From Dechloromonas sp. (GTDB lineage: Bacteria > Pseudomonadota > Gammaproteobacteria > Burkholderiales > Rhodocyclaceae): a stretch of 64,000 nt of DNA. Location of the stretch: assembly GCA_028687035.1 (NCBI GenBank), contig JAQUAX010000010.1, forward strand, positions 83,408 through 147,407, written 5' to 3'. The position numbers and the translations under genes were made by a program. This document shows positions 15,095 through 59,656 of the stretch, in pieces (position 1 is the first letter of the stretch; every line of letters starts with the position of its first letter). The notes under the pieces are model-generated. The model ran no database searches. It was not told where the DNA came from and saw only the letters and a list, made by a program, of their open reading frames with translations.

Positions 15095-15170
<76 letters not shown>

Positions 15171-15462: not shown

Positions 15463-15538
<76 letters not shown>

Positions 15539-31786: not shown

Positions 31787-31837
31787 GGGCCGGGTCCGCC
31801 CCTTTTTTTGCCTTGGCCGCTGCGGAGAATCGGGCGC

Positions 31838-34800
31838 ATGAAGAATTCATCCGCCTCTTCGAACAACAACGTCAACGTCATCATCGGCGCCGATGTCTCC
31901 GGCTTGCGCGACGGGGCGAATGAGGCCGCCGGGATCGTCGAGGATCTCGGCAAAAAAACCGGCGAGGCCGGTGAAAAGGCGCGCGTCGGATCGCATGCCT
32001 TCGAACTGATCAGCGGAAAAATCCGCAATTTCGCGGCCGATGCCGTCGGGGCCGCCGCCGCCACCGCCGAATTGGCCATGGCCGCCGCCCGCATGCCCGG
32101 GCCGTGGTTGATCGCCGCCGCTGCGGTGGGTACCTACGCCAAGGCATCCCACGACGCGATGGTCGAGACGCGCGCCATGGACAACGCCATGGCGATCACC
32201 AGCAACTACGCCGGCATGACTGCGGGAACGATGCGGCTGTTGGCCGAGGACGTGGCCGCTGCCGGTACCGCCACCATCGGGCAGTCGAAGGAGATCGTCA
32301 CCGCGCTGGTCGCTTCGGGGAAGATCGGGGCCGCCGCGATCGGCGAAGTCTCCCGCCTTTCCGACGATTACGCCGCGGCGACCGGGAAGACGGTCGGCAA
32401 GATCGCGCCCGACCTGGTTCGCCTCTTTGCCGACCCGGCCAAGGGGGCTCGCGAACTCAACGAGTCGATGCACTTCCTGACCGAGACGCAGATCGACCAC
32501 ATCGAATCGCTGCAACGCCTCGGGGATGCGCAGGGCGCCCAGCTTGAACTGGCGCAGGCGCTGGCTAACCACCTGCCCAAGCATGCGGCGCAGCTGGGCA
32601 CGCTGGAGCGCGCCTGGGATGGCGTGAAGAAAGCGGCATCCAGCGCCTGGGATTCGATGATGGGCGTCGGCCGCGAGTCGACGCCCGAAGCAACGGCGCG
32701 CCAGCTTGCCAGCGAACTCGATGCCCTGGCGTCCGGGCTGGGGACGACGCGCGACAAGCTGGCGGCCAAGGTTGCCGGCACGACGATGGAGTCGCGCGTT
32801 GCCCAGCTTGAGGCCGGGTTGCGCGAGGCGACCCGGTGGGCGTCCGCCGCTGCGACGCGGGCTGCCGAACAGGCCGCCTCGGCCGCCGACAATGACCGGC
32901 GGAATCAGGCGGCCGGATTGGTCGCCAAGTATTCGACGCAGGCCAAGGTCGACGAGCTGATGGCGCAGCGAAAGCTGCTCGAGGAGACCGGCGTCGCCGG
33001 CAGCGACGAGGCGATCAAGAAGATCGACGCCGAGATCGCCAAACTGCGCGAGGTCAAGAAGGAGCGGGCATCGGCCGCGGCGCAGCTGATCGAGTCGGTC
33101 CGCGAGCGTATCGCCATCGAGGAAGCGGCCGCCGGAACGACGGAGCGCCTGAGCGAAGGCGAGCGGATCGCGCTGCGCGTGCGAACGGCGCTGGCGAACG
33201 GCACGCTGAAGATGACCGCCACCCAGCGCTCTGTCGTGAATGCCGAGCTGGACCGCCTGATCGCCCTGGAAAAATCGAACGCCGCCGAGAAGGAGGCCGC
33301 GAAGATCGCCGCCGAACGGGCGGCGATGCTCGGCCGCATGCTCGCTGAAGAGTTGAAGCGCGATGAAACGATCGAGAAGGCCAACGAAAAGCTGCGCGAC
33401 GAGATCGAGATGCTGGGCATCTCGAAGGATGCGCAGGGCGAGTACCGGGCGGCCAAGATCGAGACGCAGGCCGCCAGCGAAGCGGCGACGGCGGCAGCGA
33501 TCGAGGAACAGGCCGAGATGTGGAAGACGCTCGGCGTGCTGCCCGATGTGATCGAGGGCTATCTCGCCCTGGCGGCGGCGAAGCGTGAGTCGGCGGCCGA
33601 TCTGACCGAGCAGGCCCGCCTGCTGCGGGAGAAGGGCGTCAAGGAGGTAGCGGTCAAGGCCGCCGAAGACGCGACGCGCCGGTGGGCGGAAGCGGCGAAT
33701 GATATTTCGCGCAGCCTGACCGATGCCCTGATGCGCGGCTTCGAGTCCGGACGCAGCATGGCTGAAAACCTGATTTCGGCGATCAAGTCGGCCTTCGGGA
33801 CGATGGTGCTGCGGCCGATCGTGCAGGCCGTCGTGATGCCGATCAGCAACGCTGTGGGCAGCGCCATCTACGGGCAGGCCGCCAGCTCGGCGGTAAGCGG
33901 CGGCACCAATATCATTTCTTCCGCAAACGCCCTGAACAACCTCTACGACGGCATCACCAGCAGCTTCGGCAACCTCGGCAACGCCGTCGGCTCTTACGTC
34001 AGCTACGCGCAGACCGCCTCGGGCTATACCTACGGCACGGCGGCCGGCAGTCAGCAATCGATGATGCTGGCCGCGCAGGATGCCGGCCTCACGACGACGG
34101 GCAGCGCCGCGACGATGGGCACTGCCGCCAGCTACCTCGGCGGCGCCCTGGCCGGCTACGCGCTGGGCAAAATGATCTCCGGCGGATATTCCGTCATCGG
34201 CAAGTCCGGCAACACGGCCGTCATGGTCGGTACCGCCATTGGCTCGATCTGGGGACCGATCGGAGCGGCGATCGGCGGCGCCATCGGCGGCCTGATCAAC
34301 CGCGCATTCGGCATGGGGCCGAAGAAGGTCACCGCCTACGGCGTCACCGGCACCTTCGGCGACGGCGATTTCGAGGGCAAGCAGTTCCAGAAGTGGAAGC
34401 AGGACGGCGGCTTGTTCCGCTCGGACAAGAAGGGCACGAACTACAGCCCGCTGGCGGCCAGCGCCGACTACGCGCTGTCGATGACCTTCCGCGCCGTGCA
34501 GGACAGCGCCATCGCCTACGCCGAGGCGATCGGCCTGGGTACGTCGGCCATCGAGGCCTACAGCAAGTCGATCACGATCAACCTCAAGGGCCTTTCCGAC
34601 GAGGAAAAGCAGGCCAAGTGGGACGAGCTGTTCGCGACGATGAGCAACGAGATGGCGGCGCTGGCCGGCAACATCACGGCCTTCGCGCACACCGGCGAAA
34701 CCGCCTCGCAGGTGCTGGAGCGCCTGGCCACGAACCTGACCGCGGTCAATGCGGTGATGGACAGCCTCGGCGACAACGCCTTCGCGGTGTCGCTCAAGGG

Positions 34801-36763
34801 CGCCGGGCTGGCCAGCCAGCTGGTCGACCTGGTCGGCGGGCTGCAGAACTTCTCCAACCTGACCGGCAGCTACTACCAGAACTTCTACACCGAGCAGGAA
34901 CGCTTCGACGCGGCGATCGTCTCGATGCGCAAGACGCTGATCGAGATCGGCGTGACGGCCATCCCGACCACCCGGCAGGCCTTCCGCGACCTGATGGAGG
35001 CGCAGGACCTGACCACCGTCAGCGGCCAGGCGACCTATGCCGCGCTGCTCCAGGTGTCGTCCGGTTTCGCCACGCTGATCGGCAACATCGAGAACCAGAT
35101 CGCGCAGCTGGAAGCCGAGCGCCTGCGCCTGGCGCAGCAGATCCTGGACGAGCACGACAACCTGCTCGCCCGCGCCGCCGAGCTGACCGGCAATACGCAG
35201 GCGCGGCTGGCCGCCGAACTGGCTGGCATCGACCCGCTCAACCGCTCGCTCTACCTCTACGTCGATGCGCTGGAACGTGCCCAGACGGCGACCGAATCGA
35301 TCAGCGCCTCGTTCGACGCGCTGGCCGAGGCCGGCGGCGGGATCGCCTCGTTTGTGCAGAGCATCCGCCAATCGCTGATCGGGCTGGCCTCCGGCGCCTC
35401 GCTGAGCGCCACCCGCGCCGCCTACCGGGCCGACCTCGACCGCGCCCGGCAGGGCGACGTCAGCGCCAGCGGCACGATCACCGGCAGCGCGCAGGCCTAT
35501 CTGGACGCCGCGCGCAGCCAATCGACCAGTCGCGCGCAGTACGCGGCCACCGTCGCCCGCGTCGCCGCCGAACTCGAGGCGCTGCCGGCCACCAAGAGCT
35601 ATGCGCAGCAGCAGGTCGAGCTGCTGCAGCAGCTCAACGACGGCGCCAGCGACATCGAGCAGGCGCTGGCCACGCTGCAATCGGCGCTCTCCGATGCGAT
35701 GGCGGCCGGCTTCGGCCAGCTGGACGTCAACACAAACGGCCTGCTGACCTACGACGAACTGCGCGCCGGCTTGTCCGGCATCGCTACCGATGCCCAGCTG
35801 CGCGCCCTGATCGCCGCCGCCGACACCAACGCCGACGGCCAGATCAGCAAGCTCGAAGCCCAGGCCGCCGCCACCTCGGCCGTCGCCGACAACACGGCCG
35901 GCATGCCGCTGGACGCGCAGGAGCAGATCAACGAACTGCGCCGGCTGGTCGGCGAGACGATCACCAACAGCGGCCGCATCCTCGAGCTCAACGTCTCTCT
36001 GCAGTCGCTGCGCAACGCCATCGTCGAGATGACCGAGCAGGAGCGGACGCAGGCGGCGATCAACAACAAGAACCTCGAACTCGAGGCGCTGACCAAGCTG
36101 CAGGAAGGCATGGTCGGCAGCGTGCTGGCCGGGATCGACTCGATCTGGTCGCTGGCCGCCGCCAACAAGGTGTTCCTGAACGCCGATGCGGGCGCCGCGC
36201 TGAAGAAGAACACGGCCATCTTCAACGTGGTCGACGGCACGTTCGTGTCGGATTACGACCAGATCACCGGCAGCGCGGCGAACATGGATGCCTTCAAGGC
36301 GGCGTTCTACGCGGCCGGCGGCGCCTACGAGCAGACCTACGGCATGGCCGACGACCTGCTCGCGCTCAAGGCCAAGATCGACGCCGCGCGCCAGGCGATC
36401 ATCGCGCTCGGCGGCGTGCCGCAGTTCGCCCGCGGCATCAACGAGGTGCCGGCGGACATGCTGGCGATGATCCACAGCGGCGAGCGCATCCTGCCCGCCG
36501 CTGACAACCGCGCGCTGATCGCCGCGCTGGAAGAGCGCAACCGGCCGCAGGAAATCCGCCTGACCGGCCTGCCGCCGGTCGCCATGCAGCAGGACGACAC
36601 CCTGCGCCGCGAGATGCTGGCCGAGCTGCGCGCCCTGCGCGCCGAACTGGCCAATTCCCGCGCCGAATCGCGGTCGACCGCGCTGTCGACCTCGAAACTG
36701 GCCCGCCTGGTGGATCGGCTGATGCCGGACGGTGACGCGCTCTCCGTGAGGATCGCGGCATGA
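31838..36763 (+). CDS. Tail tape measure protein with EF-hand pair
   Basis: 1641 residues; sets tail length and reaches the host membrane at ejection. Long Ala/Glu/Arg helical regions (about residues 290-620) and a Gly/Ala-rich hydrophobic block near residues 780-840 (VMVGTAIGSIWGPIGAAIGG) are typical. A PQFARGINEVPADMLAMIHS motif near the end is common in tape measures. Unusually, two canonical EF-hand loops occur: residues 1296-1307 (DVNTNGLLTYDE) and 1329-1340 (DTNADGQISKLE). Start ATG 31838. The long antisense ORF on the other strand is a shadow. Confidence 0.9.
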   Translation: MKNSSASSNNNVNVIIGADVSGLRDGANEAAGIVEDLGKKTGEAGEKARVGSHAFELISGKIRNFAADAVGAAAATAELAMAAARMPGPWLIAAAAVGTYAKASHDAMVETRAMDNAMAITSNYAGMTAGTMRLLAEDVAAAGTATIGQSKEIVTALVASGKIGAAAIGEVSRLSDDYAAATGKTVGKIAPDLVRLFADPAKGARELNESMHFLTETQIDHIESLQRLGDAQGAQLELAQALANHLPKHAAQLGTLERAWDGVKKAASSAWDSMMGVGRESTPEATARQLASELDALASGLGTTRDKLAAKVAGTTMESRVAQLEAGLREATRWASAAATRAAEQAASAADNDRRNQAAGLVAKYSTQAKVDELMAQRKLLEETGVAGSDEAIKKIDAEIAKLREVKKERASAAAQLIESVRERIAIEEAAAGTTERLSEGERIALRVRTALANGTLKMTATQRSVVNAELDRLIALEKSNAAEKEAAKIAAERAAMLGRMLAEELKRDETIEKANEKLRDEIEMLGISKDAQGEYRAAKIETQAASEAATAAAIEEQAEMWKTLGVLPDVIEGYLALAAAKRESAADLTEQARLLREKGVKEVAVKAAEDATRRWAEAANDISRSLTDALMRGFESGRSMAENLISAIKSAFGTMVLRPIVQAVVMPISNAVGSAIYGQAASSAVSGGTNIISSANALNNLYDGITSSFGNLGNAVGSYVSYAQTASGYTYGTAAGSQQSMMLAAQDAGLTTTGSAATMGTAASYLGGALAGYALGKMISGGYSVIGKSGNTAVMVGTAIGSIWGPIGAAIGGAIGGLINRAFGMGPKKVTAYGVTGTFGDGDFEGKQFQKWKQDGGLFRSDKKGTNYSPLAASADYALSMTFRAVQDSAIAYAEAIGLGTSAIEAYSKSITINLKGLSDEEKQAKWDELFATMSNEMAALAGNITAFAHTGETASQVLERLATNLTAVNAVMDSLGDNAFAVSLKGAGLASQLVDLVGGLQNFSNLTGSYYQNFYTEQERFDAAIVSMRKTLIEIGVTAIPTTRQAFRDLMEAQDLTTVSGQATYAALLQVSSGFATLIGNIENQIAQLEAERLRLAQQILDEHDNLLARAAELTGNTQARLAAELAGIDPLNRSLYLYVDALERAQTATESISASFDALAEAGGGIASFVQSIRQSLIGLASGASLSATRAAYRADLDRARQGDVSASGTITGSAQAYLDAARSQSTSRAQYAATVARVAAELEALPATKSYAQQQVELLQQLNDGASDIEQALATLQSALSDAMAAGFGQLDVNTNGLLTYDELRAGLSGIATDAQLRALIAAADTNADGQISKLEAQAAATSAVADNTAGMPLDAQEQINELRRLVGETITNSGRILELNVSLQSLRNAIVEMTEQERTQAAINNKNLELEALTKLQEGMVGSVLAGIDSIWSLAAANKVFLNADAGAALKKNTAIFNVVDGTFVSDYDQITGSAANMDAFKAAFYAAGGAYEQTYGMADDLLALKAKIDAARQAIIALGGVPQFARGINEVPADMLAMIHSGERILPAADNRALIAALEERNRPQEIRLTGLPPVAMQQDDTLRREMLAELRALRAELANSRAESRSTALSTSKLARLVDRLMPDGDALSVRIAA

Positions 36764-37653
36764 AGTTCATCGAGCCCGTCAGCCTCGCTAGCGCCGCGCT
36801 GATCTCCTCGACCATCGCCGAGGCCGACTATCCGGCCTGGGATGTCGCGACCTCCTACACCGTCGGCGCCCGCGTCATCAAGACGGCGACGCACCGCGTC
36901 TATGAGTCGGTCAAGGCGGACAACCTCGGCCATGACCCGGCCACGGACAAGACGGCGGAGTGGTGGGTGGATGTCGGCCCGACCAACCGCTGGGCGATGT
37001 TCGACGCCTCGGTCGGCAGCGTGAGCAGCGTGGCCGGCGCGCTGACCGTCGTCCTCGAGCCCGGGATCATCTCGGCGCTGGCGCTGCTCGACATCGCCGG
37101 CACCGCGGTGCACGTGGTCATGGAATCCGGCGGCGCCACCGTCTACGACAAGACCTTCGACATCGCCGACGACGCCGAACTGCTCGACTGGTGGATGTAC
37201 TTCTTCGGCCCGATCACGCCGGCCACCACGCTGATCGTCACCGACCTGCCGCCGTTCCACGCCGGCCGGCTGACCGTGAGCATCACCCCGGCCGGCGGCA
37301 GCGCCGCCTGCGGCACGCTGGCCGTCGGCGAACTGGTCGAGGTGGGCGACGTGGAGTGGGGCGCGCGGATCGGCGTCACCGACTATTCGCGCAAGGAAAC
37401 GGACGAGTGGGGCGTGACGTCGGTCACCGAACGCGGCTACGCCAAGCGGCTGGAGCCCTCGGTCGAGATCCGCAAGACCGCCGTCGATTACGTCGCCCGC
37501 CGCTTCGCCGCCATCCGCGCCCGGCCGGTCGTCTGGATCGGCGTTCCGGACTACGAAAGCACGGTGATCTACGGCTGGCTGCGCGACTGGGGCATCGCGA
37601 TTTCGTACCCGACCTTCTCGGTCGCCCAACTCACCATCGAAGGCCTGACATGA
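36760..37653 (+). CDS. Tail-tip protein with carbohydrate-binding-like module
   Basis: 297 residues. An N-terminal WDVATSYTVGARVI region resembles a short chitin/carbohydrate-binding repeat (W...Y..G..V). The following beta-rich part resembles distal tail proteins of siphoviruses with non-lambda tips (e.g. WGARIGVTDYSRKETDEWGV). It starts by overlap with the tape measure stop, so it is the first baseplate/tip gene. Confidence 0.6.
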   Translation: MKFIEPVSLASAALISSTIAEADYPAWDVATSYTVGARVIKTATHRVYESVKADNLGHDPATDKTAEWWVDVGPTNRWAMFDASVGSVSSVAGALTVVLEPGIISALALLDIAGTAVHVVMESGGATVYDKTFDIADDAELLDWWMYFFGPITPATTLIVTDLPPFHAGRLTVSITPAGGSAACGTLAVGELVEVGDVEWGARIGVTDYSRKETDEWGVTSVTERGYAKRLEPSVEIRKTAVDYVARRFAAIRARPVVWIGVPDYESTVIYGWLRDWGIAISYPTFSVAQLTIEGLT

Positions 37654-38120
37654 CCACGATCACCGCCCTCCCGACGCCGCCCTCGCGGCTGGACCCGGTC
37701 AATTTCCGCGACCGCGCCGATGCCTTCCTGGCCGCGCTGCTCCCCTTCACCGCCGAGGCCAACGCACTGGCCGCCGAAGTCAATGCCGACAAGGCGACGA
37801 TCGTTGCCAAGGTCGATCTGGCGATGCTTTCCGGGCTCGGCAATGCCGCGGCCAATGCCGCGACCGCCGTTGCCAAGGCGGCCGAAGCCGTCGCCGCCGC
37901 GAGCGCCGCGCAGCAGGCGCAGACGCTGGCGACCGCCGCCTGGACGGCCGCGCTCGCCGCCAACCCGGACCTCAACCCGCCGGTGCGGCTCAACCCGCAC
38001 ACGATCACTGCCAACCTCAGCATCCCGGCCGGCTACAACGCCCAGGCCGCCGGGCCGCTGACCATCGCCGAAGGCGTTGTCGTCGAGATCGCCGACGGCG
38101 CCAGCTTTGCCATCAACTGA
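37650..38120 (+). CDS. Tail-tip/fibre stalk protein with repeated C-terminal module
   Basis: 156 residues. An Ala-rich helical middle (AANAATAVAKAAEAVAAASA) likely forms a trimeric coiled coil. The last 43 residues (LNPHTITANLSIPAGYNAQA onward) are nearly the same as the end of the protein at 38553-38861. Coupled by ATGA to the previous gene. Confidence 0.65.
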   Translation: MTTITALPTPPSRLDPVNFRDRADAFLAALLPFTAEANALAAEVNADKATIVAKVDLAMLSGLGNAAANAATAVAKAAEAVAAASAAQQAQTLATAAWTAALAANPDLNPPVRLNPHTITANLSIPAGYNAQAAGPLTIAEGVVVEIADGASFAIN

Positions 38121-38130
38121 GAGGACCGTC

Positions 38131-38400
38131 ATGGCCGAAAACCCCTTCAAATTCGATCCGCCAGGCCAGACCTCGCCGGCCCTCGCGCTGCTCGCCATCA
38201 CGCCGTCGGACGCAGCCGACCTGCCGCGCATCGTCCGCGACATCCGCGTCGGCGCGCCAGGCGACGTGGCGCTGGTCGATACCGAGGGCAACACCGTCAG
38301 CTTTAAGTCCTGCGTCATCGGCGAGCGCCTGGGGCCGTTCCGGGCCGCCCGCGTGCTGGCCACCGGGACGACCGCCGGCCAGCTGGTCGGCTACGTGTGA
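38131..38400 (+). CDS. Spike-base-like small tail protein
   Basis: 89 residues. RDIRVGAPGDVALVDTEGNT then GPFRAARVLATGTTAGQLVG matches the pattern of the RCAP_Rcc01079-type spike base proteins (ATGTTA motif near the end). Probable structural protein at the tail tip. Confidence 0.6.
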   Translation: MAENPFKFDPPGQTSPALALLAITPSDAADLPRIVRDIRVGAPGDVALVDTEGNTVSFKSCVIGERLGPFRAARVLATGTTAGQLVGYV

Positions 38401-38410
38401 GGCGCCCGCC

Positions 38411-38548
38411 ATGCTCAGCCTTTCCATTTCCCTCACTGCCCGCCGCGCCGTACCGGACGCCATCCCCCACTGGGACGTGCTGACCGACGACCAGGGCGCC
38501 CCGATCACACTGGACGACGGCAGCAGCCTCGTCATCTACCTGGAGTAG
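38411..38548 (+). CDS. Small tail-tip ORF, 45 aa
   Basis: MLSLSISLTARRAVPDAIPH then WDVLTDDQGAPITLDDGSSL, ending VIYLE. It fills the space between two structural genes with no larger gaps. The short beta-type sequence suits a tip component. No clear RBS beyond weak GCGCCC, so support is moderate. Confidence 0.5.
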   Translation: MLSLSISLTARRAVPDAIPHWDVLTDDQGAPITLDDGSSLVIYLE

Positions 38549-38552
38549 CGCC

Positions 38553-38861
38553 ATGAGCACCCTGCAGCAGATCCACGCCGACCCGGCCCGCCGCATCGGG
38601 CAACTGCCCGCCACGGCGCTCTTCCTGGTCGATGACGCCGGCAGCAGCAAGACGGCGACGCCGGCGCAGATCACCGCCTATGTGGCCGCCGCCATCGCGG
38701 ACAGCGCCGCCCTGCAGCCGGTCGCCCGCTTCAACCCGAACACCGTGCGCGACAACCTGACCATCCCGGCCGGCTACAACGCCGCGATGGTCGGCCCGAT
38801 CACCCTGGCCGAGGGCGTCGTCGTCGACATCGCCGACTCGGCATCCCTCGCCATCCTCTAA
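38553..38861 (+). CDS. Tail-tip protein sharing the C-terminal module
   Basis: 102 residues. The C-terminus (FNPNTVRDNLTIPAGYNAAM onward, ending SASLAIL) repeats the module of the 37650-38120 protein. The N-terminal half is unrelated, indicating module shuffling. It directly precedes the DGR variable protein. Confidence 0.65.
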   Translation: MSTLQQIHADPARRIGQLPATALFLVDDAGSSKTATPAQITAYVAAAIADSAALQPVARFNPNTVRDNLTIPAGYNAAMVGPITLAEGVVVDIADSASLAIL

Positions 38862-38873
38862 GGAGCCTCAACC

Positions 38874-40214
38874 ATGAGCGAACTTCGCACCCGCAGCATC
38901 GTCGGCAAGGACGGTGGCCCCGTCAGCTTCCCGAACGGCATCGTCATCGGTAGTGCCGGTACCTACGGCAACATCAACCACATCGGCACGCCCGGCCAGG
39001 CCGGCTTCGGCGTCGGCATCTGCCCCGGCCCGCTGCCGGACGGCATGCTGCCGCTGCCCGGCTACGCCGACCCGCTGGCCGAGAATTACGGCAACTACAA
39101 GTACACGGACGGTAGCATCATGGTCTGGGTGCCGGCCTACTGGTACAAATGGGGCACGGGCGCCAACGGCCTGGCGGTCAATGAAGTGGATATCAAGCCC
39201 TTCGCCGCCTACGCCAACCCGGCCGCCGCCACCGCCGCCGGCTACGCGCTGCACCGGGCCTTCTACGACGGAGGCGCGGTGAAGCAGGGCGTGTTCGTCG
39301 ACAAGTACCAGTGCAGCAACAACGGCGGGATCGCCTCGTCGATCAAGCACGGCCTGCCGCTGACCTCGCATGCCACGCACAACCCGTTCGCCGGGCTGGC
39401 CGGCGCGCCGTCCAACACCTACGGCGGCGCGATCGCCGCGGCCAAGACGCGCGGCGCCAGCTTCTTCTGCAACTCGCGCTTCGTCTTCGCGGCCTTGGCC
39501 ATGCTGTCCTATGCCCATGGCCGCGCCAGCGCAAGCACGACCTACAACGCCTGGTACGACGCCGCTGGAACGAAAAATTTCCCGAAGGGGAACAACAACA
39601 ACGCGCTCGGCGACGCCAGCGACGGCGCGATCCTCTACGTGTCGGACGGCTATCCGAACTGCGGCAAGACCGGCAGCGCCAACCTGTTCGCGCGGACCAC
39701 GCACAACGGCCAGAACTGCGGCATCGCCGACCTCAACGGCAACCTGTTCGAGGTGACGCCGGGCCTGACTTCGGACGGCACGAACCTGTACGTCCTGAAG
39801 ACCAGTGTCTCGATGAAGAACGTCACCGGCGGCAACACGCTGGCGACCGACCTCTGGGGCGCGACCGGCATCGCCGCGCAGTACGACGACCTGGGCATCG
39901 CCTACGAGGCATGGCGTGAAACCGGCGCTGACCGGACGACCTACTACGGCAACGCCAGCCAGGTGTTTTCGCACGCAACGAGCGGCAATGCGTGGGCCTG
40001 GGCTGGTGCAGGCGGAATGCTGGCCGGCGGCGATGGCGGCACCAATGCCTTCGGTAACGACCACTTCGCCGATTACAAGCCGAACGAGTCGTGTCCGGTC
40101 TCCGGCGGCACCTGGGGCAACGGTTCGCTCGCCGGCGTCTGGGCGTTGACCCTCACCACCGGCCGCGCGAACTCGAGCAGCAGCGTGGGCTTCCGCTCCG
40201 CCTTGTATTTGTAA
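38874..40214 (+). CDS. DGR variable protein, tail-tip receptor-binding candidate
   Basis: 446 residues; the likely receptor-binding protein diversified by the retroelement. The N-terminus (SELRTRSIVGKDGGPVSFPN) is typical of tail-fibre attachment. The C-terminal ~200 residues fit a C-type-lectin/FGE-like fold, with DLNGNLFEVTPGL, WAWAGAGGMLAGG and the VR end CPVSGGTWGNGSLAGVWALT. VR encodes residues 407-442, where TR Asn codons (AAC) become T, G, L or S, the pattern expected of adenine mutagenesis. Host tail genes precede it; avd, TR and RT follow. Confidence 0.88.
   Translation: MSELRTRSIVGKDGGPVSFPNGIVIGSAGTYGNINHIGTPGQAGFGVGICPGPLPDGMLPLPGYADPLAENYGNYKYTDGSIMVWVPAYWYKWGTGANGLAVNEVDIKPFAAYANPAAATAAGYALHRAFYDGGAVKQGVFVDKYQCSNNGGIASSIKHGLPLTSHATHNPFAGLAGAPSNTYGGAIAAAKTRGASFFCNSRFVFAALAMLSYAHGRASASTTYNAWYDAAGTKNFPKGNNNNALGDASDGAILYVSDGYPNCGKTGSANLFARTTHNGQNCGIADLNGNLFEVTPGLTSDGTNLYVLKTSVSMKNVTGGNTLATDLWGATGIAAQYDDLGIAYEAWRETGADRTTYYGNASQVFSHATSGNAWAWAGAGGMLAGGDGGTNAFGNDHFADYKPNESCPVSGGTWGNGSLAGVWALTLTTGRANSSSSVGFRSALYL
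40091..40200 (+). repeat. DGR variable repeat (VR)
   Basis: 110 bp matching TR at 40656-40765 (offset 565 bp). Substitutions relative to TR occur at 13 TR adenines; one other difference is T to G (TR 40727). The last invariant run GTGGGCTTCCGCTCCG forms the initiation-of-homing side. Confidence 0.9.
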
Positions 40215-40222
40215 CTTTGGAG

Positions 40223-40244
40223 GCCGGGCGCGGGAGCGCCTGGC
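40223..40244 (+). promoter_or_regulatory. DGR target hairpin with GRNA-type loop
   Basis: GCCGGGCGC-GGGA-GCGCCTGGC: a 9-bp stem (one G-U) with tetraloop GGGA, fitting the GRNA consensus. It starts 22 bp after the end of VR and 8 bp after the VP stop. Such hairpins/cruciforms promote homing in the Bordetella phage BPP-1 DGR. Confidence 0.8.
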
Positions 40245-40250
40245 ATTGAA

Positions 40251-40652
40251 ATGAACCTGCACGCCGAAGCCAGCCTGAACCGGAAATTTGTCGAAATGGC
40301 CCAGTTGATGAACGTCTATCTGAACCACTTTCCGCGACACGAGAAGTACGCGCTGTCGCAACAGATCCGGACGGCTGCCTACGACGTGTATTCGCTCATC
40401 GTGGAGGCGCAGAAGCGCTACCACAAGAAAACCACGCTGACCCAGCTGGATATCCGCCATGAACAGCTTCGCATGCTGATCAACCTGGCTTTCGAACTCG
40501 GCTATTTCGCCTTCAAGGACGGAACGCCCAGCGAAGAAAAGCCGGCGAAGCTGGCGCGACATCGTCACCTGGCCATAAGCCGGCTCGTCGATGAGCTAGG
40601 GCGCATGATCGGCGGCTGGCTGGTTTCAGAGCGGCAACGGGAGGCGTCTTAA
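40251..40652 (+). CDS. avd: DGR accessory protein Avd
   Basis: 133 residues, four-helix-bundle, positively charged (MNLHAEASLNRKFVEMAQLM, then LSQQIRTAAYDVYSLIVEAQ and HRHLAISRLVDELGRMIGGW). Avd forms a pentamer that binds RT and TR RNA and is required for cDNA synthesis. It lies between VP and TR as in BPP-1-type DGRs; stop 3 bp before TR. Confidence 0.88.
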   Translation: MNLHAEASLNRKFVEMAQLMNVYLNHFPRHEKYALSQQIRTAAYDVYSLIVEAQKRYHKKTTLTQLDIRHEQLRMLINLAFELGYFAFKDGTPSEEKPAKLARHRHLAISRLVDELGRMIGGWLVSERQREAS

Positions 40653-40655
40653 CAT

Positions 40656-40765
40656 GTGTCCGATCTCCGGCGGCAACTGGAACAACAGTTCGAACGCCGG
40701 CGTCTGGGCGTTGAACCTCAACAACGTCCGCGCGAACTCGAACAACAACGTGGGCTTCCGCTCCG
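40656..40765 (+). ncRNA. DGR template repeat (TR) region
   Basis: 110 bp similar to VR, rich in AAC codon-like units that allow wide mutation at position 1 and 2 while avoiding stops. The following 145 bp to the RT start corresponds to the spacer part of the TR RNA, where cDNA priming occurs in BPP-1. The ATG-initiated ORF across this region is not considered a gene. Confidence 0.85.
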
Positions 40766-40910
40766 ACTCTGCTTCGCCTCGCACCCGGCAACGGGATGGT
40801 GGAACAAAGGGAGACGCTTTCCGGCGCGCGGCCGTTTCGGCGACCGCGGCGAAATCGGTGTGCTGCCGTTTTTCTGGTAGGGGCCGCAGGGCTCTCGAAG
40901 GTCGGACGAC

Positions 40911-41864
40911 ATGAAGCGCATCGGTCATCTGTACGAGCAGGCCTTTACGCCCGAGGCGCTGCTCACCGCTTTTTTCGACGCGTCGCGCCATAAGCGCATG
41001 ACGCGCGCCTGCTTTCAGTTCGAGCGGCGGCTGGCCTACCACCTGGATCAGCTGCACGCCGAACTGCAAGACGGCAGCTACTGCCCGCGCCCGTATTTCA
41101 GCTTCATGGTCTACGAGCCGAAGCCGCGCCTGATCTACGCGCCGGCCTTCCGCGACCTGGTGGTGCAGCACGCGATCTACCGGTTGATCTATCCGCTTTT
41201 CAACCGGGGATTCATCGACCAGTCCTTCGCCTGCCGCAAGGGCAAGGGGACGCACGCGGCGGCCGATTACGCGCAGGCCGCACTGCAAAACTCGCCGGCC
41301 GACAGCTACACGCTGAAGCTGGATATCCGTCGCTTTTTCTACCGGATCGACCGCGCCACCCTGCGCCGGCAGATCGAGCGCAAGGTGAAGGATCGCCGCT
41401 TCGTGGATCTGATGATGGCTTTCGCCGACCACGGCGAGCCGCGCGGCATCCCGATCGGCAACCTGCTGAGCCAGTTGTACGCGCTGATCTACCTCGACCC
41501 GCTCGACCATTTCATCAAGCGCGAACTGGGCGTCCGGCTGTACTGCCGCTATGTCGACGATTTCGTGCTGTTCGGCCTGACCCGCCGCCAGGCGGTCGAA
41601 TACCGGTCGCGGATCGTCGCCTTTCTGGCCGAACGCATTGGGCTTGAACTCTCGCGCTCAACCATTGCACCGACCCGGCGCGGCCTCAATTTCGTGGGCT
41701 ACCGCACCTGGGCCAGCCGCCGTTTCGTGCGCAAGCACAGCCTGTTCACCTTCCGCCGGTCGGTGCGCCGCGGCGACGCGGCCAGCATTGCCGCCTGCCT
41801 CGGCCACGCCCGGCGGACCCACTCTCTTGCCGCGATGCGGCGCTACCTGGAGCAATCGCAATGA
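40911..41864 (+). CDS. DGR reverse transcriptase
   Basis: 317 residues, single-domain RT of the group II intron-related class. YXDD box YVDD (residues 214-217, context YCRYVDDFVLFGL). Motif 4 IPIGNLLSQLYALIYLDPLD has SQ at residues 187-188, the mark that separates DGR RTs from others, which carry QG. The C-terminal thumb (RRGLNFVGYRTWASRRFVRK) is present. It overlaps the next gene by 4 bp. Confidence 0.93.
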   Translation: MKRIGHLYEQAFTPEALLTAFFDASRHKRMTRACFQFERRLAYHLDQLHAELQDGSYCPRPYFSFMVYEPKPRLIYAPAFRDLVVQHAIYRLIYPLFNRGFIDQSFACRKGKGTHAAADYAQAALQNSPADSYTLKLDIRRFFYRIDRATLRRQIERKVKDRRFVDLMMAFADHGEPRGIPIGNLLSQLYALIYLDPLDHFIKRELGVRLYCRYVDDFVLFGLTRRQAVEYRSRIVAFLAERIGLELSRSTIAPTRRGLNFVGYRTWASRRFVRKHSLFTFRRSVRRGDAASIAACLGHARRTHSLAAMRRYLEQSQ

Positions 41865-42292
41865 CCATCATCGCTTACCGCAAGCACATCACCCGCGACA
41901 TCACCCGCGAGCTGCGCGGCCCCGAGGGCTGCATCGAACTCGCCACGGTGGACGGCGTCACTTATGTGTTTTTGCCCGCCAGCGCCACGCTCGGCGAGCA
42001 GCCGGCGGAGATCGCCGACAGCATCACCGAGGTGACGCTCGACGCCGTGACGCGCTCGGCCATCAAGGCGGCCAGCCCGCACTGCCGGCTGATCGCCGAC
42101 CGCATGCAGCAGCGCATCCGCGAGCGCTACAGCCTGGACGACGAGATGTATTTCAACCGCATCGGCTCTGCCGCCGCGCTCGATCTGTACCAGCCGACCG
42201 CCGACGAACTGCATGACCTGTCGGCCTTCAATGCGCACATCGATGACGTCCGCGACTGGGGCCGGCAGCAGCGCGCCGCGCTGGGGCTGTGA
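41861..42292 (+). CDS. Phage tail hypothetical protein after DGR
   Basis: 143 residues (MTIIAYRKHITRDITRELRG then TADELHDLSAFNAHIDDVRD). ATGA overlap with the RT stop. No domain recognised; may be tail-tip assembly or a chaperone. Confidence 0.6.
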   Translation: MTIIAYRKHITRDITRELRGPEGCIELATVDGVTYVFLPASATLGEQPAEIADSITEVTLDAVTRSAIKAASPHCRLIADRMQQRIRERYSLDDEMYFNRIGSAAALDLYQPTADELHDLSAFNAHIDDVRDWGRQQRAALGL

Positions 42293-42294
42293 CC

Positions 42295-42591
42295 ATGGAC
42301 TGGCACTCGATCCTGATCGCGCTGCTGATCCTGTTCGCGCTGCTGCAGCTGGCCGACGCCTGGACCACCGACCGCGGGCTGGCCCGCGGCCTGCGCGAGA
42401 TCAACCCGGCCATGGCCTGGCTGATCGCCCGCTACGGCCGCCGTCCGGCATTGGCCGTCGCCAAGCTGGTGATGATCGCCATCGCCCTCGGCGCCACCGC
42501 CGCCGGCTGGATGCCCTGGCCGGTGCTGGCGGCGATCGATGCGGTGTACGCCGGCGTGGTCGTCAATAACGCGCTCAGGCTGCGTAGATAG
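42295..42591 (+). CDS. Small membrane protein, holin-like
   Basis: 98 residues with two or three hydrophobic segments (SILIALLILFALLQLADAWT; VLAAIDAVYAGVVVNNALRL). Sits at the start of the lysis cassette, so it may be a holin or antiholin. Confidence 0.55.
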   Translation: MDWHSILIALLILFALLQLADAWTTDRGLARGLREINPAMAWLIARYGRRPALAVAKLVMIAIALGATAAGWMPWPVLAAIDAVYAGVVVNNALRLRR

Positions 42592-42600
42592 GGGGACGTC

Positions 42601-42897
42601 ATGCCGGAAAAGATGCTCAGCTGGTGGCAGAGCCTGATCGACACGGCGGCTTTCGTGGCGATGGGGATGTTCATCGGCGTCGGACAACTGCTTGCCAGCA
42701 AGGAGGTGCTGACGCTGCGCATCATCATTGGCCGGGCCTTGTCAACGGGCGGTATTGCCGCTGCGGCCGGCGCGGCGCTGGTCTGGGTGCCGGACCTGCC
42801 GCGCGTCGGCCAGCTGGGCATCGCGGCCGCGCTGGCCAGCCTCGGCACCTCTGGGCTGGAGCGGCTGTTCCAGCGCCTGCTGCAGGGGAGGGGCTGA
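42601..42897 (+). CDS. Phage holin family protein
   Basis: 98 residues, two to three TM segments (IDTAAFVAMGMFIGVGQLLA; STGGIAAAAGAALVWVPDLP) and a charged C-terminus. Position before the endolysin and size fit a class II holin (LydA/HP1 type). Confidence 0.65.
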   Translation: MPEKMLSWWQSLIDTAAFVAMGMFIGVGQLLASKEVLTLRIIIGRALSTGGIAAAAGAALVWVPDLPRVGQLGIAAALASLGTSGLERLFQRLLQGRG

Positions 42898-42898
42898 G

Positions 42899-43015
42899 AT
42901 GGACACCGCGCTGTTCATCGCCATCGCCCTGATCGCCGCCGTGATCGGCGCTTATGACCTCGCGCGCTGCCGGCGACGGCATGCCGCGGGGAAACTTCCG
43001 GAGGACATTCAATGA
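42899..43015 (+). CDS. Small TM protein in lysis cassette, 38 aa
   Basis: MDTALFIAIALIAAVIGAYD then LARCRRRHAAGKLPEDIQ. One N-terminal TM segment and a basic tail; stop overlaps the endolysin start (ATGA). Could be an antiholin-type partner. Confidence 0.55.
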   Translation: MDTALFIAIALIAAVIGAYDLARCRRRHAAGKLPEDIQ

Positions 43016-43536
43016 CCCTCGACCAACTACGGCAGATCATGCCCTACGCCGGCCCGCGCGCCGCGCGCTACTTCCAGCCGCTGACCGACGCGATGCTCGA
43101 ATTCGGCATCGACACGCCGGCCCGCCAGGCAGCCTTCCTCGCCCAGGTGGCGCATGAGAGCGCCAGCCTGCGCTACGTGCGCGAACTGGCGGACGGCACC
43201 GCCTACGAAGGCCGCGCCGACCTCGGCAACACCCGGCCCGGCGACGGGCCGCGCTACAAGGGGCGCGGGCTGATCCAGATCACCGGCCGCGCCAACTATC
43301 GCGCCACCTCGCTCGCGCTGTACGGCGACGAGCAGCTGCTGCTCGACCATCCGCAGCTGCTCGAGGAGGACGAGCCGGCCTGCCGCAGCGCGGCGTGGTT
43401 CTGGTGGATGCGCGGCCTGAACACGCTGGCTGACACCGGGCAGTTCCGCGCGATCACCCGCAAGATCAACGGCGGGTTCAATGGCTACGCCGACCGCCTG
43501 GCCTCGTGGGAAAAGGCCAAGGGGGTGCTGGCATGA
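43012..43536 (+). CDS. Endolysin, glycoside hydrolase family 19
   Basis: 174 residues, chitinase/lysozyme-like muramidase. AAFLAQVAHESASLRYVREL holds the catalytic Glu, with YKGRGLIQITGRANYRATS, DEPACRSAAWFWWMRGLNTL and TRKINGGFNGYADRLASWEK as conserved GH19 segments. No signal peptide, so it needs the holin to reach the wall. Confidence 0.92.
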   Translation: MTLDQLRQIMPYAGPRAARYFQPLTDAMLEFGIDTPARQAAFLAQVAHESASLRYVRELADGTAYEGRADLGNTRPGDGPRYKGRGLIQITGRANYRATSLALYGDEQLLLDHPQLLEEDEPACRSAAWFWWMRGLNTLADTGQFRAITRKINGGFNGYADRLASWEKAKGVLA

Positions 43537-43988
43537 GCCTCACGAGCCTGAAATGGGTGGCCGCACTGGCCGCCGCTGTCGCGCTCTGGTGGGCCTGGAC
43601 GACGCACAACGCGCATCAGCAGCAGATCGGCTACAACCGCGCCGCCGGCGAGTACGCCGCGCAGCTGGCCGAAGCCAAGGCGCAGGCGCTGGCCGCCGAG
43701 CGCGGCTGGAACGACAAATTGAAAGGAGCGATCGATGACCGCACGACCCTGGAACAAGCCCTGGCGGCTGCTCGTGCTCGCGCTGCCGGCGCTGATGAGC
43801 GCCTGCGCCGCACCGCCGACGATTTCCGCAACCGCCTGTCCGCAGCCACCGCCGAAACCGCGCGCGCTGCAGCCGCTGCCGCCGCAGAGTTACTCGGAGA
43901 GTGCGGCGGCCGATATCGAGCGCTGGCAGCAGCAGCTGATGGCCACGCTGCCGACCTCGCCCAGTGCGACGCCGCCTGGCCGGAGTGA
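43533..43988 (+). CDS. Inner-membrane spanin Rz
   Basis: 151 residues, N-terminal TM segment (SLKWVAALAAAVALWWAWTT) and long Ala-rich coiled-coil periplasmic part with a Cys near the end. Forms the complex that fuses inner and outer membranes at lysis. Overlaps the endolysin by ATGA; Rz1 is embedded in another frame. Confidence 0.82.
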   Translation: MSLTSLKWVAALAAAVALWWAWTTHNAHQQQIGYNRAAGEYAAQLAEAKAQALAAERGWNDKLKGAIDDRTTLEQALAAARARAAGADERLRRTADDFRNRLSAATAETARAAAAAAAELLGECGGRYRALAAAADGHAADLAQCDAAWPE

Positions 43989-44013
43989 CGGCAATGCCGG
44001 CGCGGATCGTTGA
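43735..44013 (+). CDS. Outer-membrane spanin lipoprotein Rz1, nested
   Basis: 92 residues from ATG 43735, with RBS AAAGGAG. Lipobox LALPALMSAC and a Pro-rich mature part (CPQPPPKPRALQPLPPQSYS) are classical Rz1 features. It starts inside Rz in the +1 frame and ends just beyond it. Confidence 0.82.
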   Translation: MTARPWNKPWRLLVLALPALMSACAAPPTISATACPQPPPKPRALQPLPPQSYSESAAADIERWQQQLMATLPTSPSATPPGRSDGNAGADR

Positions 44014-44644: not shown

Positions 44645-45367
44645 ATGACCCGGGCGGCTCCGAAGAAGCCAAAAAAGAGGCCGCCCACCGGGCGGCTTCT
44701 TTTTGAGCCGATCAAGACGCAGGCGCGCTTTGCGCGCAAGGTGATCGTCGCGTTCTCGGGCGGCAAGGATTCGGTGGTGACGCTGGATCTGTGCTGCCGT
44801 TACTTCGACGAGGTGCATGTGTTCTTCATGTACCAGGTGCCCGGCCTGTCGTTCCAGGAAGCGGCGATCCGCTGGGCGGAAAACCGGTACGGCGTCGAGG
44901 TGATGCGCCTGCCCCACTTCGAGCTTTCGGACTGGTTCCGGCTCGGGCTGTTCCGGCACGAGGACTGGGCGGTGCCGCCGGTCGGCATCCAGGACATTTA
45001 CGCCTACGTGCGGCAGCAGTTCGGCGCGCATTTCATCGCGGCCGGCGAGCGCATCGCCGATTCGATCTGGCGGCGGGCGATGATGAAGCATTCCGGCCAT
45101 CTGGACGTCAAGCGCGGCCGGTTCTACCCGCTGATGTACTTCCGCAAGGAGGATGTGCAGCGCTACATCCGCCAGCACGACCTGAAGGTGAGCCCGGAAT
45201 CGCGCTTTCTCGGGCATTCGTTCCGCTCGCTGCAGGGTGAAGACATGTATTTGCTGCGCCGGCACTATCCGGCGGATTACGAGAAGGTGGCGCGCTGGTT
45301 CCCGTTCGTAGGGGCCGGCGTGCGGCAGTTCGAGATGGAGATGGAGGAAAACGGCCGTGAGTTCTGA
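44645..45367 (+). CDS. PAPS reductase-fold PP-loop protein (IbrA-like)
   Basis: 240 residues. PP-loop IVAFSGGKDSVVTLDLC (about residues 33-49) that binds ATP-like nucleotides, followed by FHM-type helices and RRAMMKHSGHLDVKRGRFYP then YFRKEDVQRYIRQHDLKVSP. Paired with a ParB-like gene as in IbrA/IbrB of enterobacterial prophages and in phage genes linked to DNA modification. Substrate unknown. Confidence 0.78.
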   Translation: MTRAAPKKPKKRPPTGRLLFEPIKTQARFARKVIVAFSGGKDSVVTLDLCCRYFDEVHVFFMYQVPGLSFQEAAIRWAENRYGVEVMRLPHFELSDWFRLGLFRHEDWAVPPVGIQDIYAYVRQQFGAHFIAAGERIADSIWRRAMMKHSGHLDVKRGRFYPLMYFRKEDVQRYIRQHDLKVSPESRFLGHSFRSLQGEDMYLLRRHYPADYEKVARWFPFVGAGVRQFEMEMEENGREF

Positions 45368-46052
45368 TCATCTGACGAAGTACCAGCGTTTCGAGAATGT
45401 GCGGGTGTGGCGGCACGAGCTACGGCCGCATCCGAAGAACCCGCGCACGATCGGCAAGAAGCAGGAGCAGCGCCTGCGCGGCAAGGTTAAGGACGTGGGG
45501 CTGGTGCAGCCGCTGATCTGGAACCGGCGCACCGGCTACCTGGTCGGCGGGCATCAGCGCATGGAGGTGCTCGACCGACTGGAGAAGTACAACGCGCTGA
45601 CGCGGGAAAACGACTATCAGCTGGATGTCTCAGCCTGCGAGCTTTCCGACGCCCAGGAACTGGAGATGCTGGTCTTCCTGAACAACCCGAGCGCGTCCGG
45701 TTCGTTCGACCTCGACCTGCTGGCCGACCTGAACCTCTCGGCCGGCATCGATTTCGCCGGCATGGGGTTCGACCAGATCGACGTCGACCTGATGTTCGAC
45801 GGCGACGCGCGTTTCTCTCACTTGTTCGAGGACGACGACGAGGTGGCGGCGAGCAAGGAGAAGCTGGCCGAGGTGAAGGCGGCGCGCGAGGCCGGCGCGG
45901 AGCGCATGCAGGGGGAGAACAGCGCGGAGTTCTACTTCGTGGTCGTCTGCCGCGACGACGAGGAGCGAACGGAGTGCATGCGGCGGCTCGGGGTGCCGAA
46001 GCACGAGCAGTTCGTCAGCGGGGATTCGCTGCTGGGCGCGACCGAGGGGTGA
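45357..46052 (+). CDS. ParB-like (sulfiredoxin-fold) protein, IbrB-like
   Basis: 231 residues; GTG start overlapping the previous gene by 11 bp. The ParB/Srx core is seen in WRHELRPHPKNPRTIGKKQE, VGLVQPLIWNRRTGYLVGGH (GxxR/H context GGHQRMEVL) and SDAQELEMLVFLNNPSASGS. Tail acidic and helical. Acts likely with the PP-loop protein. Confidence 0.78.
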   Translation: MSSDHLTKYQRFENVRVWRHELRPHPKNPRTIGKKQEQRLRGKVKDVGLVQPLIWNRRTGYLVGGHQRMEVLDRLEKYNALTRENDYQLDVSACELSDAQELEMLVFLNNPSASGSFDLDLLADLNLSAGIDFAGMGFDQIDVDLMFDGDARFSHLFEDDDEVAASKEKLAEVKAAREAGAERMQGENSAEFYFVVVCRDDEERTECMRRLGVPKHEQFVSGDSLLGATEG

Positions 46053-51953: not shown

Positions 51954-52400
51954 ATGGACGTACTGCGGGCCGCCTATCTGGTGGCACATGATTTCGAGCC
52001 TTCGGGCGCCGTCGGCCTGGCCAAGAAGATGGGCGTGCCGGTCGGGACATTCCTGAACGAGCTGAACCCCGAGCAGGAAACCCACAAGCTGGGTCTGGGC
52101 CGGGCGGTGGCGATGTCGGTCGCAGCGGGCGACGTGCGCATCCTCCACGCCTTCGCCGATACCTGCGGATGCGTGGCCTTTCCCAAGCCCAACCTTTCCA
52201 ACGTCTCCGACGAGGCGCTGCTCGACCTCTTCCTGGCTCGCGACGAGGCCATCGGCCGCTTTGCCGAGGTGGTCCGCCGCGCACTGTCCGACGGCAGCGT
52301 GAGCGCTGCCGAGCTGGAGGAGATCAAGGAGACGGCCTATCACTCGGCGGCTTCGCTGCTGGAGATCGTCGCCCGCCTGAAGGGACTGCGCGATGGCTAA
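51954..52400 (+). CDS. CII-like regulatory protein (CP76 type)
   Basis: 148 residues. MDVLRAAYLVAHDFEPSGAV then LAKKMGVPVGTFLNELNPEQ and HKLGLGRAVAMSVAAGDVRI match phage regulatory CII (CP76) proteins of P2/186-like and related phages. RBS GGAGGAG. Stands third after cro as cII does. Confidence 0.78.
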   Translation: MDVLRAAYLVAHDFEPSGAVGLAKKMGVPVGTFLNELNPEQETHKLGLGRAVAMSVAAGDVRILHAFADTCGCVAFPKPNLSNVSDEALLDLFLARDEAIGRFAEVVRRALSDGSVSAAELEEIKETAYHSAASLLEIVARLKGLRDG

Positions 52401-52803
52401 GACGGACTGGCCGTCGTGGCGCGATTGGGTGCGCTCGACGGTGTTTGTGGCGGTTTTTTTGGGCCTCTGCGCAGCCCTCGATGCGCAGGCTTGTGAGGAG
52501 AGTGGAAATGGGAACAAGCAACCGGTGTTTGACGATGCGCGAAGAGCGCCTGCTGCGGCAGGCGATGGCGCGCCGCAAGGATGCGGCACGGGACTTTGCG
52601 GTGTTTCGGGCGCTGCTGACGACGGGCATGCGGATCAGCGAGTTCTTGTCGCTGACGGTGCCGGAAGTGAAGGCGGCGCTGGCGATCGAGCGCTTGCTGG
52701 TGCCGGCGAGCCGGCGCAAGGGCGAGGCGTGCGATTTGTTTGTCTATTTGCGTGGCGAGGCGCGGGAGGCGTTTGCCGATTTGCTCAAGCTGGCCGGCGA
52801 TGA
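52393..52803 (+). CDS. Possible small membrane protein, uncertain
   Basis: Starts inside the CII-like stop region; its first ~35 residues (WRDWVRSTVFVAVFLGLCAA) look like a TM or signal segment. After about residue 45 it shares DNA with the next gene in another frame and becomes low-quality sequence, so only the N-terminal part is credible. Confidence 0.3.
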   Translation: MAKTDWPSWRDWVRSTVFVAVFLGLCAALDAQACEESGNGNKQPVFDDARRAPAAAGDGAPQGCGTGLCGVSGAADDGHADQRVLVADGAGSEGGAGDRALAGAGEPAQGRGVRFVCLFAWRGAGGVCRFAQAGRR

Positions 52804-53149
52804 CGGCCCGCTGGTGCCGGGCCGCGACGGCCGCCCGCTGACGCCGCGGGCCTATCAACTGCGTCTGAAGCGCTGGGCGCACGAGTCGGGGGTGGATGAC
52901 CGCCTGTCGCCGCACTGGCTGCGCCACACCTTCGGGGCGCAGTTCTGCCGCATGAGCACGGCCAGCCCGACCGAAACCTGCATCCGCCTGGCCAACCTGC
53001 TCGGCCATGCCGACCCGCGCACCTGCAGCCACTACCTGACGATGAGCCGCGACGACGATCCGGGCGCGGCAATCGAAACGGCTTTCCGCTGCCGCAAGCG
53101 GATCACCAAGGCGCAGGCGCGCCGGGCTTTTGAGTTGAGGGCAGCATGA
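52508..53149 (+). CDS. Tyrosine recombinase catalytic-domain protein
   Basis: 213 residues, catalytic domain only. Arg in LTTGMRISEFLSL, a Lys in SRRKGEAC, HWLRHTFG (HxxR), LLGHAD, and Tyr in CSHYLTM. Lacks an N-terminal core-binding domain. Third tyrosine recombinase of the element; in the early region, so a role in replication or resolution is possible. Confidence 0.72.
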   Translation: MGTSNRCLTMREERLLRQAMARRKDAARDFAVFRALLTTGMRISEFLSLTVPEVKAALAIERLLVPASRRKGEACDLFVYLRGEAREAFADLLKLAGDDGPLVPGRDGRPLTPRAYQLRLKRWAHESGVDDRLSPHWLRHTFGAQFCRMSTASPTETCIRLANLLGHADPRTCSHYLTMSRDDDPGAAIETAFRCRKRITKAQARRAFELRAA

Positions 53150-59380: not shown

Positions 59381-59656
59381 ATGGAGTCGCCGGATATAAC
59401 CAGGCAGCAGCTGTGCGCGGCCTTGAGTATCTCCGAATCCACCGTCCGCAGGCTTGAGAATTTCGGGCTTCCGTTCACGCCGATTGGCGCACGGGGCAAG
59501 CGATACAATCTCAACGAAGTGCGCCGGTGGCTGAAGGAAAATCAATGTCGATTTGGACAGACGAACAAGGCCGGCTCCACGTCGGAATCATGGTCAAAGG
59601 CAAACGCGTTCACCGACGCTTGCCGGAAGGTTCAACTAAGGGTGATGCCAAGCTGA
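59381..59656 (+). CDS. Excisionase-like MerR/AlpA HTH protein
   Basis: 91 residues from ATG 59381 (GAGGAGAGGGAA upstream). MESPDITRQQLCAALSISES then TVRRLENFGLPFTPIGARGK fits the winged HTH of Xis/AlpA proteins. Overlaps the integrase by 112 bp, so expression of both is linked. Confidence 0.75.
   Translation: MESPDITRQQLCAALSISESTVRRLENFGLPFTPIGARGKRYNLNEVRRWLKENQCRFGQTNKAGSTSESWSKANAFTDACRKVQLRVMPS

Follow-up and report, generated by a model that had tools for sequence, protein, structure and literature searches.

Does the template repeat (TR) of a diversity-generating retroelement (DGR) serve only as a template, or can it also belong to the message from which the reverse transcriptase (RT) is made? 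This question is raised by a prophage locus of Dechloromonas sp. in the window analysed here, that is, the whole stretch of 64,000 nucleotides from positions 83,408 to 147,407 of the forward strand of contig JAQUAX010000010.1 (assembly GCA_028687035.1), which has a GC content of 65.6% and belongs to a genome of 3.3 Mb in 24 contigs. The locus is a complete DGR with the gene order of phage BPP-1, and its TR lies inside an open reading frame (ORF; 40654-40914), here called trORF, that overlaps the start of the RT gene. As trORF starts at the edge of the TR and shares four bases with the RT gene, translation of the RT is probably coupled to translation of the template. The DGR itself is ordinary, and sound as judged by its family; the new part is its expression architecture. 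An earlier note on this DNA took the TR to be an intergenic repeat and therefore overlooked the frame. According to the available parts of a large DGR survey, the TR is intergenic in most cases, whereas candidates rejected outside its DGR clade typically have TR and variable repeat (VR) either both in coding sequences (CDS) or both in intergenic regions (PMC8144416). A literature search, which was thin on subscription journals and bioRxiv and is no proof of absence, yielded no description of a distinct frame that passes through a TR and is coupled to the RT. A lineage in which the template stays readable into the enzyme gene would call for a different annotation of DGR templates. The following features (window coordinates) are needed for the argument:

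38874-40214, + strand: variable protein (VP), the DGR target protein, 446 aa, with a C-type-lectin/formylglycine-generating enzyme-like fold (sequence and structure-model matches)
40091-40203, + strand: VR, at the C-terminal end of VP (repeat alignment)
40223-40244, + strand: hairpin after the VR, 9-bp stem and GGGA loop (matches the consensus of PMC3240598)
40251-40652, + strand: avd, 133 aa (Pfam and PHROG matches)
40639-40644, + strand: GGGAGG, predicted Shine-Dalgarno (SD) site of the TR frame (-10.3 kcal/mol against the anti-SD sequence)
40654-40914, + strand: trORF, 86 codons, running through TR and spacer in the reading frame of the VR, with its ATG at the TR edge and its TGA overlapping the RT start (ORF list and family comparison)
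40656-40768, + strand: TR (repeat alignment)
40769-40910, + strand: spacer RNA region with conserved motifs (family alignment)
40911-40914, + strand: ATGA, in which the RT start codon overlaps the trORF stop codon (sequence)
40911-41864, + strand: DGR reverse transcriptase, 317 aa (profile and PDB sequence matches)

Relatives of the locus were collected from viral contigs and from bins or genomes named Rhodocyclaceae, Thiobacillus, Mariprofundaceae, Geobacteraceae and gammaproteobacteria. Briefly, 139 loci with an RT were reduced to 133 with enough upstream DNA, of which 95 (window included) carried a repeat pair with a score of at least 40 and 86 had an RT that was more than 55% identical. 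The latter, again including the window, are referred to as the family; the remaining nine repeat-pair loci, L103 among them, lie outside the frame counts. With the frame set from the Asp codon at the end of the TR, the TR frame extended four bases into the RT gene in 73 of the 86 loci and ended within -8 to +26 of the RT start in eight more, while it was fused in frame to the RT in two (L092 and L102) and broken in three (L074, L097 and L100). It was thus open to the vicinity of the RT start, or ran into the RT, in 83/86 loci, and the TR is an ORF running into the RT start in this prophage and most of its relatives. With the conserved ATG as the starting point instead, the RT was reached in 41/44 dereplicated loci, L074, L100 and L102 being the exceptions.

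Between the TR-end Asp codon and the start of the RT, the distance varied from 125 to 170 and was 2 modulo 3 in 79/86 loci, with the RT frame being -1 relative to the TR frame. In loci shifted in phase, the stop codon still lay near the RT start (one base before it in L008 and L086, directly before it in L089) or the two frames were fused (L092). Of 33 changes in spacer length mapped onto the RT tree, 27 kept the frame (P = 1.4e-8 against one third); among the reconstructions tried that were equally short, the one most adverse to the idea still had 21 of 33 (P = 3.5e-4). Gap lengths in pairwise alignments showed no preference for multiples of three (9109 gaps with a length of 1 modulo 3, 8896 with 0 and 8539 with 2); these counts were judged uninformative because divergent pairs align badly, and the tree-based count was used instead. 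Among dereplicated spacers, 38/43 were free of stops in the TR frame, as compared to a mean of 13.3 and a maximum of 21 in 300 rounds of shuffling. Stops in the three frames numbered 8, 51 and 78; after masking of a conserved UAG motif the numbers were 6, 39 and 35, with 38, 19 and 25 of the 43 loci free of stops.

The start of the frame was conserved as well. An in-frame ATG was located exactly 111 nt ahead of the TR-end Asp codon in 39/44 loci, and in the window GGGAGG precedes the ATG by nine bases. The median anti-SD energy of the trORF start was -10.3 kcal/mol in the 42 loci with an in-frame ATG, whereas random ATGs reached -2.4 kcal/mol, and the site was stronger than that of the RT in 31 of these 42 loci. 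The start-stop overlap of trORF and RT is thus conserved beyond the nulls used, subject to caveats of motif, kinship and tree, and from this conservation translation of trORF and its coupling to the RT are predicted.

For comparison, three other clades were analysed: ACA (9 of 11 loci, 6 after dereplication), BPP-1 (53 of 68 loci, 28 after dereplication) and ZX4290 (14 of 27 loci, 7 after dereplication). BPP-1 (AY029185) has the same order, mtd(VR)-bbp7(avd)-TR-brt, so that the BPP-1 layout proposed for the window holds. It likewise has an Avd protein, a C-terminal VR, an adenine bias (18/22 differences) and a hairpin after the VR (PMC3240598, as far as available), and its RT is 40% identical. 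It differs in that its TR frame stops 28 nt short of brt and lacks an ATG at the TR. Across the BPP-1 clade, the TR frame was broken in 19 of 28 loci, ended eight bases into the RT in four and passed the RT start in frame in five. In the ZX4290 group it was broken in 6/7 loci and fused in 1/7. In the BPP-1 clade (L145, L167-L224) it was the RT's own frame that was open upstream, with the spacer being free of stops in 21/28 loci (shuffle mean 6.7, maximum 15); in BPP-1 itself this frame is open for 699 nt upstream, across the TR and, out of frame, avd. The nearest RT in the phage collection searched was that of Pseudomonas phage Bise (OR683401; 61.6% identical), whose DGR has 9/9 TR-VR differences at adenines. 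In the Bise record (L144, 3722-4012), a hypothetical CDS is annotated on the minus strand over TR and spacer.

Several results weigh against a translated, RT-coupled template. The TR frame of Bise, which lies outside the count of 86, is broken 117 nt before the RT. Nine of the 19 broken loci in the BPP-1 clade end just 25-34 nt before the RT, so that the contrast between this clade and the family is less sharp than the count suggests. The RT tree was a quick tree with 22 weak forks, the spacer shuffles preserved neither motifs nor kinship, and the single conserved UAG motif supplies part of the contrast between frames. The ATG column (columns 33-35 of alignment A1) was kept in all 44 aligned loci, including L074, L100 and L102 with their broken frames; its presence even there may mean that requirements of the RNA also preserve the ATG. 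The spacer carried no sign of coding constraint: its dN/dS was 0.85 in the TR frame compared with 1.12 and 0.80 in the others, substitutions were flat across codon positions, the GC pattern of coding sequence was absent, and the trORF peptide was predicted to be unstructured (pLDDT 47.5; alignment of 30 of the 120 listed homologues plus the window's own sequence). Finally, the ribosome site of the RT was not stronger in loci that had lost coupling (P = 0.70), which leaves compensation for lost coupling by a stronger RT site unsupported.

Many of these points would be expected of an ordinary DGR in which TR and spacer remain untranslated, the open frame being a by-product of a TR without stops, high GC content and inherited, conserved RNA motifs. 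This explanation fits the lack of coding constraint in the spacer, the strong conservation of its RNA motifs and helix (described below), the retention of the ATG in broken frames and the existence of BPP-1, Bise, BalMu-1, ZX4290 and YPCBV-1, all of which manage without the frame. However, it does not readily explain the survival of the frame through 27 of 33 length changes, nor the six of 35 coupled loci in which the spacer motifs occupy a different internal frame although the overall frame is preserved. Moreover, the low-GC family members L052 and L055 (41-44% GC) also remain open, and the UAG of the invariant GTAG motif falls into the TR frame in none of the 44 loci. We therefore regard an untranslated template as unlikely, if the best of the alternatives to coupling.

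The next alternative concerns the state of the element rather than its expression. All parts of a DGR that the earlier note had reported (RT, avd, target gene, TR-VR pair and hairpin) were recovered at the same coordinates by profile, alignment and structure-model matches, and the element is a complete DGR. The avd product matched Pfam bAvd (PF22296; E 1.8e-18) and the PHROG family 'Avd protein of DGR', and the RT matched phrog_1423 (E 1.4e-101). The best solved relative of the RT was chain 8ub7_A 'Reverse transcriptase' (E 1.3e-57), which we take to be the BPP-1 RT, followed as the next distinct chain by the GsI-IIC RT (1.5e-22); the enzyme is thus of the DGR type, as judged by best match only. 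Its translation contains YVDD and LLSQ, as had been claimed for the two motifs, and the SQ motif is a mark of DGR RTs. The hairpin falls within the 7-10 bp stem and GRNA loop given for such elements in the available part of PMC3240598. Residues 404-444 of VP matched the solved chain 5vf4_A, the DGR variable protein TaqVP of Thermus aquaticus (E 3.3e-5). A model of VP (mean pLDDT 76.8; poor, with pLDDT <50, at residues 26-34, 222-256 and 266-282) was built from 49 sequences, window protein included, out of 120 VP homologues listed. In Foldseek searches, this model, which had been proposed as a check for a C-type-lectin fold, best matched TaqVP (PDB 5vf4; E 1.0e-9, 16% identity), then Mtd (PDB 1yu3; E 4.3e-3, 10% identity) and PvdO (E 1.5e-2), with formylglycine-generating enzymes far weaker (E above 1).

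Recounting of the 110-bp repeat gave the previously reported 14 TR-VR differences, 13 of them at TR adenines (24 A in 110; hypergeometric P = 1.2e-9). An aligner without base preference extended the repeat to 113 bp and the differences to 15, 14 at adenines (25 A), the additional one being TR 40766. The sole difference at another base was T40727 in the TR against G40162 in the VR. All 24 adenines of the 110-bp TR occupy codon positions 1 or 2 in the VR frame, and no copies of the repeat other than TR and VR were found in the genome. Across the 95 repeat-pair loci, 1363/1461 TR-VR differences were at TR adenines, which make up 23.5% of TR bases; the L103 pair, included here, had 0/13 differences at A. 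A single genome, Psychrobacter sp. 72-O-c, harboured three DGR loci (L096, L101 and L102), two of which share a contig and do not differ in TR core or VR.

The check on VR variants suggested for this phage was run on its relatives. Ten sets of loci with the same TR were formed, nine of which yielded a result. In five sets without any difference in the 120-500 bp of upstream flank compared, the variable VR columns at TR adenines were 19/19, 20/20, 22/23, 16/17 and 0/1 (77/80 when pooled); one more set showed no VR variation, and three with diverged flanks gave 19/20, 10/15 and 21/23. In the 49 VP sequences, mean entropy was 3.09 bits at the 11 codons that read AAN in the TR, 0.70 at other VR codons and 0.95 in the rest of VP. 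Relatives with the same TR and identical flanks but VRs that differ almost only at TR adenines indicate that the DGR family is active in nature, and together with the VP comparison they support the adenine-specific diversification claimed earlier. A scan of viral contigs with a degenerate pattern for the TR or VR of this very lineage gave no matches.

The signs of mutagenic retrohoming were seen in relatives, whereas this prophage is known from one genome, and its own activity, like the switching of host receptors proposed in the earlier note, is putative. Its DGR could be intact in sequence and yet no longer active, with the 14 adenine differences recording past events. In favour of this, a single genome with the prophage was available, and no close RT was found in 75 other genomes of the genus (matches listed there, at most 41% identical). 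The open state of all genes, the activity of relatives and the variation of VP homologues at the 11 AAN codons argue otherwise, and loss of activity seems slightly less probable still than an untranslated template.

A further possibility is that a -1 ribosomal frameshift joins trORF and RT into a fusion protein. In support of it, the RT is read at -1 relative to the TR frame, the family itself includes two fused loci (L092 and L102), and TR and RT share one frame in 6/6 dereplicated loci of the ACA clade, for which the fusion is also noted in the available text of the authors' report (PMC10612066). Pseudoalteromonas phage ACA1 accordingly has TR and RT in one ORF (PMC10612066), whereas trORF is a distinct frame with a start of its own and a four-base overlap with the RT; as it stops at 40914 in frame -1 to the RT, the window is not a TR-RT fusion of the ACA type. 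Group 3 of DiGReF, in the part of its description available (PMC3521204), is likewise a different case, being a class defined on annotated RT ORFs rather than on a separate conserved frame overlapping the RT start. Only one slippery heptamer was found in 35 coupled loci, 98 nt before the RT in L038, which disfavours the frameshift. In addition, the alignment of 8ub7_A begins at its residue 3, opposite residue 2 of the RT, so that no extension is needed. Start-stop overlaps of the NTGA type are typical of reinitiation. A frameshift fusion is thus highly improbable.

Equally improbable is an 86-aa peptide that works as a protein, e.g. by mimicking the VP tip as a decoy free of mutations or by acting as a partner of Avd: protein databases contain 307 relatives of trORF at E 0.001 or better, already predicted as proteins (74-104 aa and at best 94% identical among the 120 matches listed), but dN/dS is near 1 in the spacer-coded half, the model is unstructured, and conservation of the TR half follows from the need to encode VP. 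Selection on the peptide was rejected on the grounds of the dN/dS, codon-position and structure results. The lack of coding constraint, the motifs that shift their internal frame while the total frame is kept, and the avoidance of the GTAG UAG together suggest selection for an open translation path to the RT rather than for a product of the frame. Coupling to the RT is likely to be what selection keeps.

Under RT-coupled translation of the template, ribosomes would initiate at GGGAGG-ATG, translate TR and spacer, terminate at ATGA and reinitiate on the RT. How this process might be reconciled with the use of the same RNA as a template is suggested by a helix that closes the TR, as defined by two further features:

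40638-40650, + strand: 5' arm of the covarying 13-bp helix closing the TR, containing GGGAGG (44-locus alignment)
40811-40823, + strand: 3' arm of the closing helix (44-locus alignment)

In the alignment of 44 loci, this 13-pair helix joins the end of avd, just upstream of the TR, to the spacer. Nine of 13 pairs had two-sided changes, 98.8% of cells were paired, and none of 500 shuffles reached any of five measures. According to the accessible part of PMC12875486, bRT-Avd is recruited by the folded spacer, and reverse transcription is terminated by a motif within the 3' end of avd. Because GGGAGG lies in the 5' arm, the predicted ribosome site and the template-closing element overlap in this family, and the position of a ribosome site within a strongly covarying helix that closes the template suggests a switch between translation and templating. 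Binding of Avd-RT to the folded RNA would leave the ribosome site hidden in the helix, so that the same RNA could act as either message or template and RT output would be held in check; ribosomes and the RT complex would be mutually exclusive, thereby limiting the RT. As in BPP-1, the VR would then be overwritten by cDNA from the template that carries random bases at the positions of TR adenines.

The joint proposal is that one RNA is both message and template, that the 13-bp helix buries the ribosome site, that ribosomes and Avd-RT exclude each other, that this feedback sets the mutation rate and that a template readable into the RT is perhaps a general, overlooked rule of phage DGRs. In this family the template would be readable as a coupled frame, in ACA phages through the fusion and in the BPP-1 clade through an open RT frame. 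As a whole, this proposal is tentative and rather doubtful. When the window RNA was folded alone, its best structure contained 0/13 pairs of the closing helix (pair probabilities ~0.14), and direct support for a switch is limited to the overlap of ribosome site and helix. If true, the proposal would offer a hypothesis, open to test, as to how DGRs might keep their mutagenesis within bounds.

The spacer RNA of the BPP-1 clade corresponds to RF03022 (Phage_DGR spacer RNA), which was not found in the window family. An Rfam scan of window positions 36000-44000 (E up to 1) gave no matches, RF03022 included, and RF03022 matched 0/10 family loci as opposed to 9/9 BPP-1-clade loci tested; the family spacer RNA is thus not recognised by this model. 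The family has a conserved, covarying DGR spacer RNA (40769-40910 and alignment A1) that no Rfam 15 model matched in the window or in 10 family loci.

The DGR is part of a prophage, the ends of which would be marked by a perfect 78-bp repeat that includes tRNA-Val(cac):

17203-17280, + strand: attL-like copy, tRNA-Val(cac), 78-bp perfect repeat with 60679-60756 (repeat comparison)
60679-60756, + strand: attR-like copy, tRNA-Val(cac) (repeat comparison)

The prophage would correspond to the span of ~43.5 kb between the two copies. Besides integrase genes, it contains head genes and a tape measure gene (31808-36763), after which come the DGR and then holin and endolysin genes; the DGR is thus placed between the tape-measure and holin genes. 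The nearest full-length RTs from named genomes (72-73% identical) came from Rhodocyclaceae and Rhodocyclales bins, and given the lack of a close RT in the other genomes of the genus, the phage looks acquired rather than ancestral.

Three tyrosine integrase genes (17811-18881, 52169-53149 and 59527-60498) lie within or at the edges of the region bounded by tRNA-Val, which may contain elements that are nested or in tandem. Just upstream of the attL copy, a truncated, 39-nt tRNA-Val-like copy (17093-17131; 85% identical) is perhaps the scar of an earlier integration. The sequence GCCCGGTGTAAAA is found close upstream of each tRNA-Val copy (17168-17180 and 60651-60663) and may be an integrase arm site. 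Downstream of the lysis genes, a PAPS-reductase-like gene (44645-45367) is followed by a ParB/methyltransferase-like gene (45357-46052). On the minus strand, two tRNA Asp-Glu-Ala clusters follow each other at 14898-15538 in an apparent tandem duplication.

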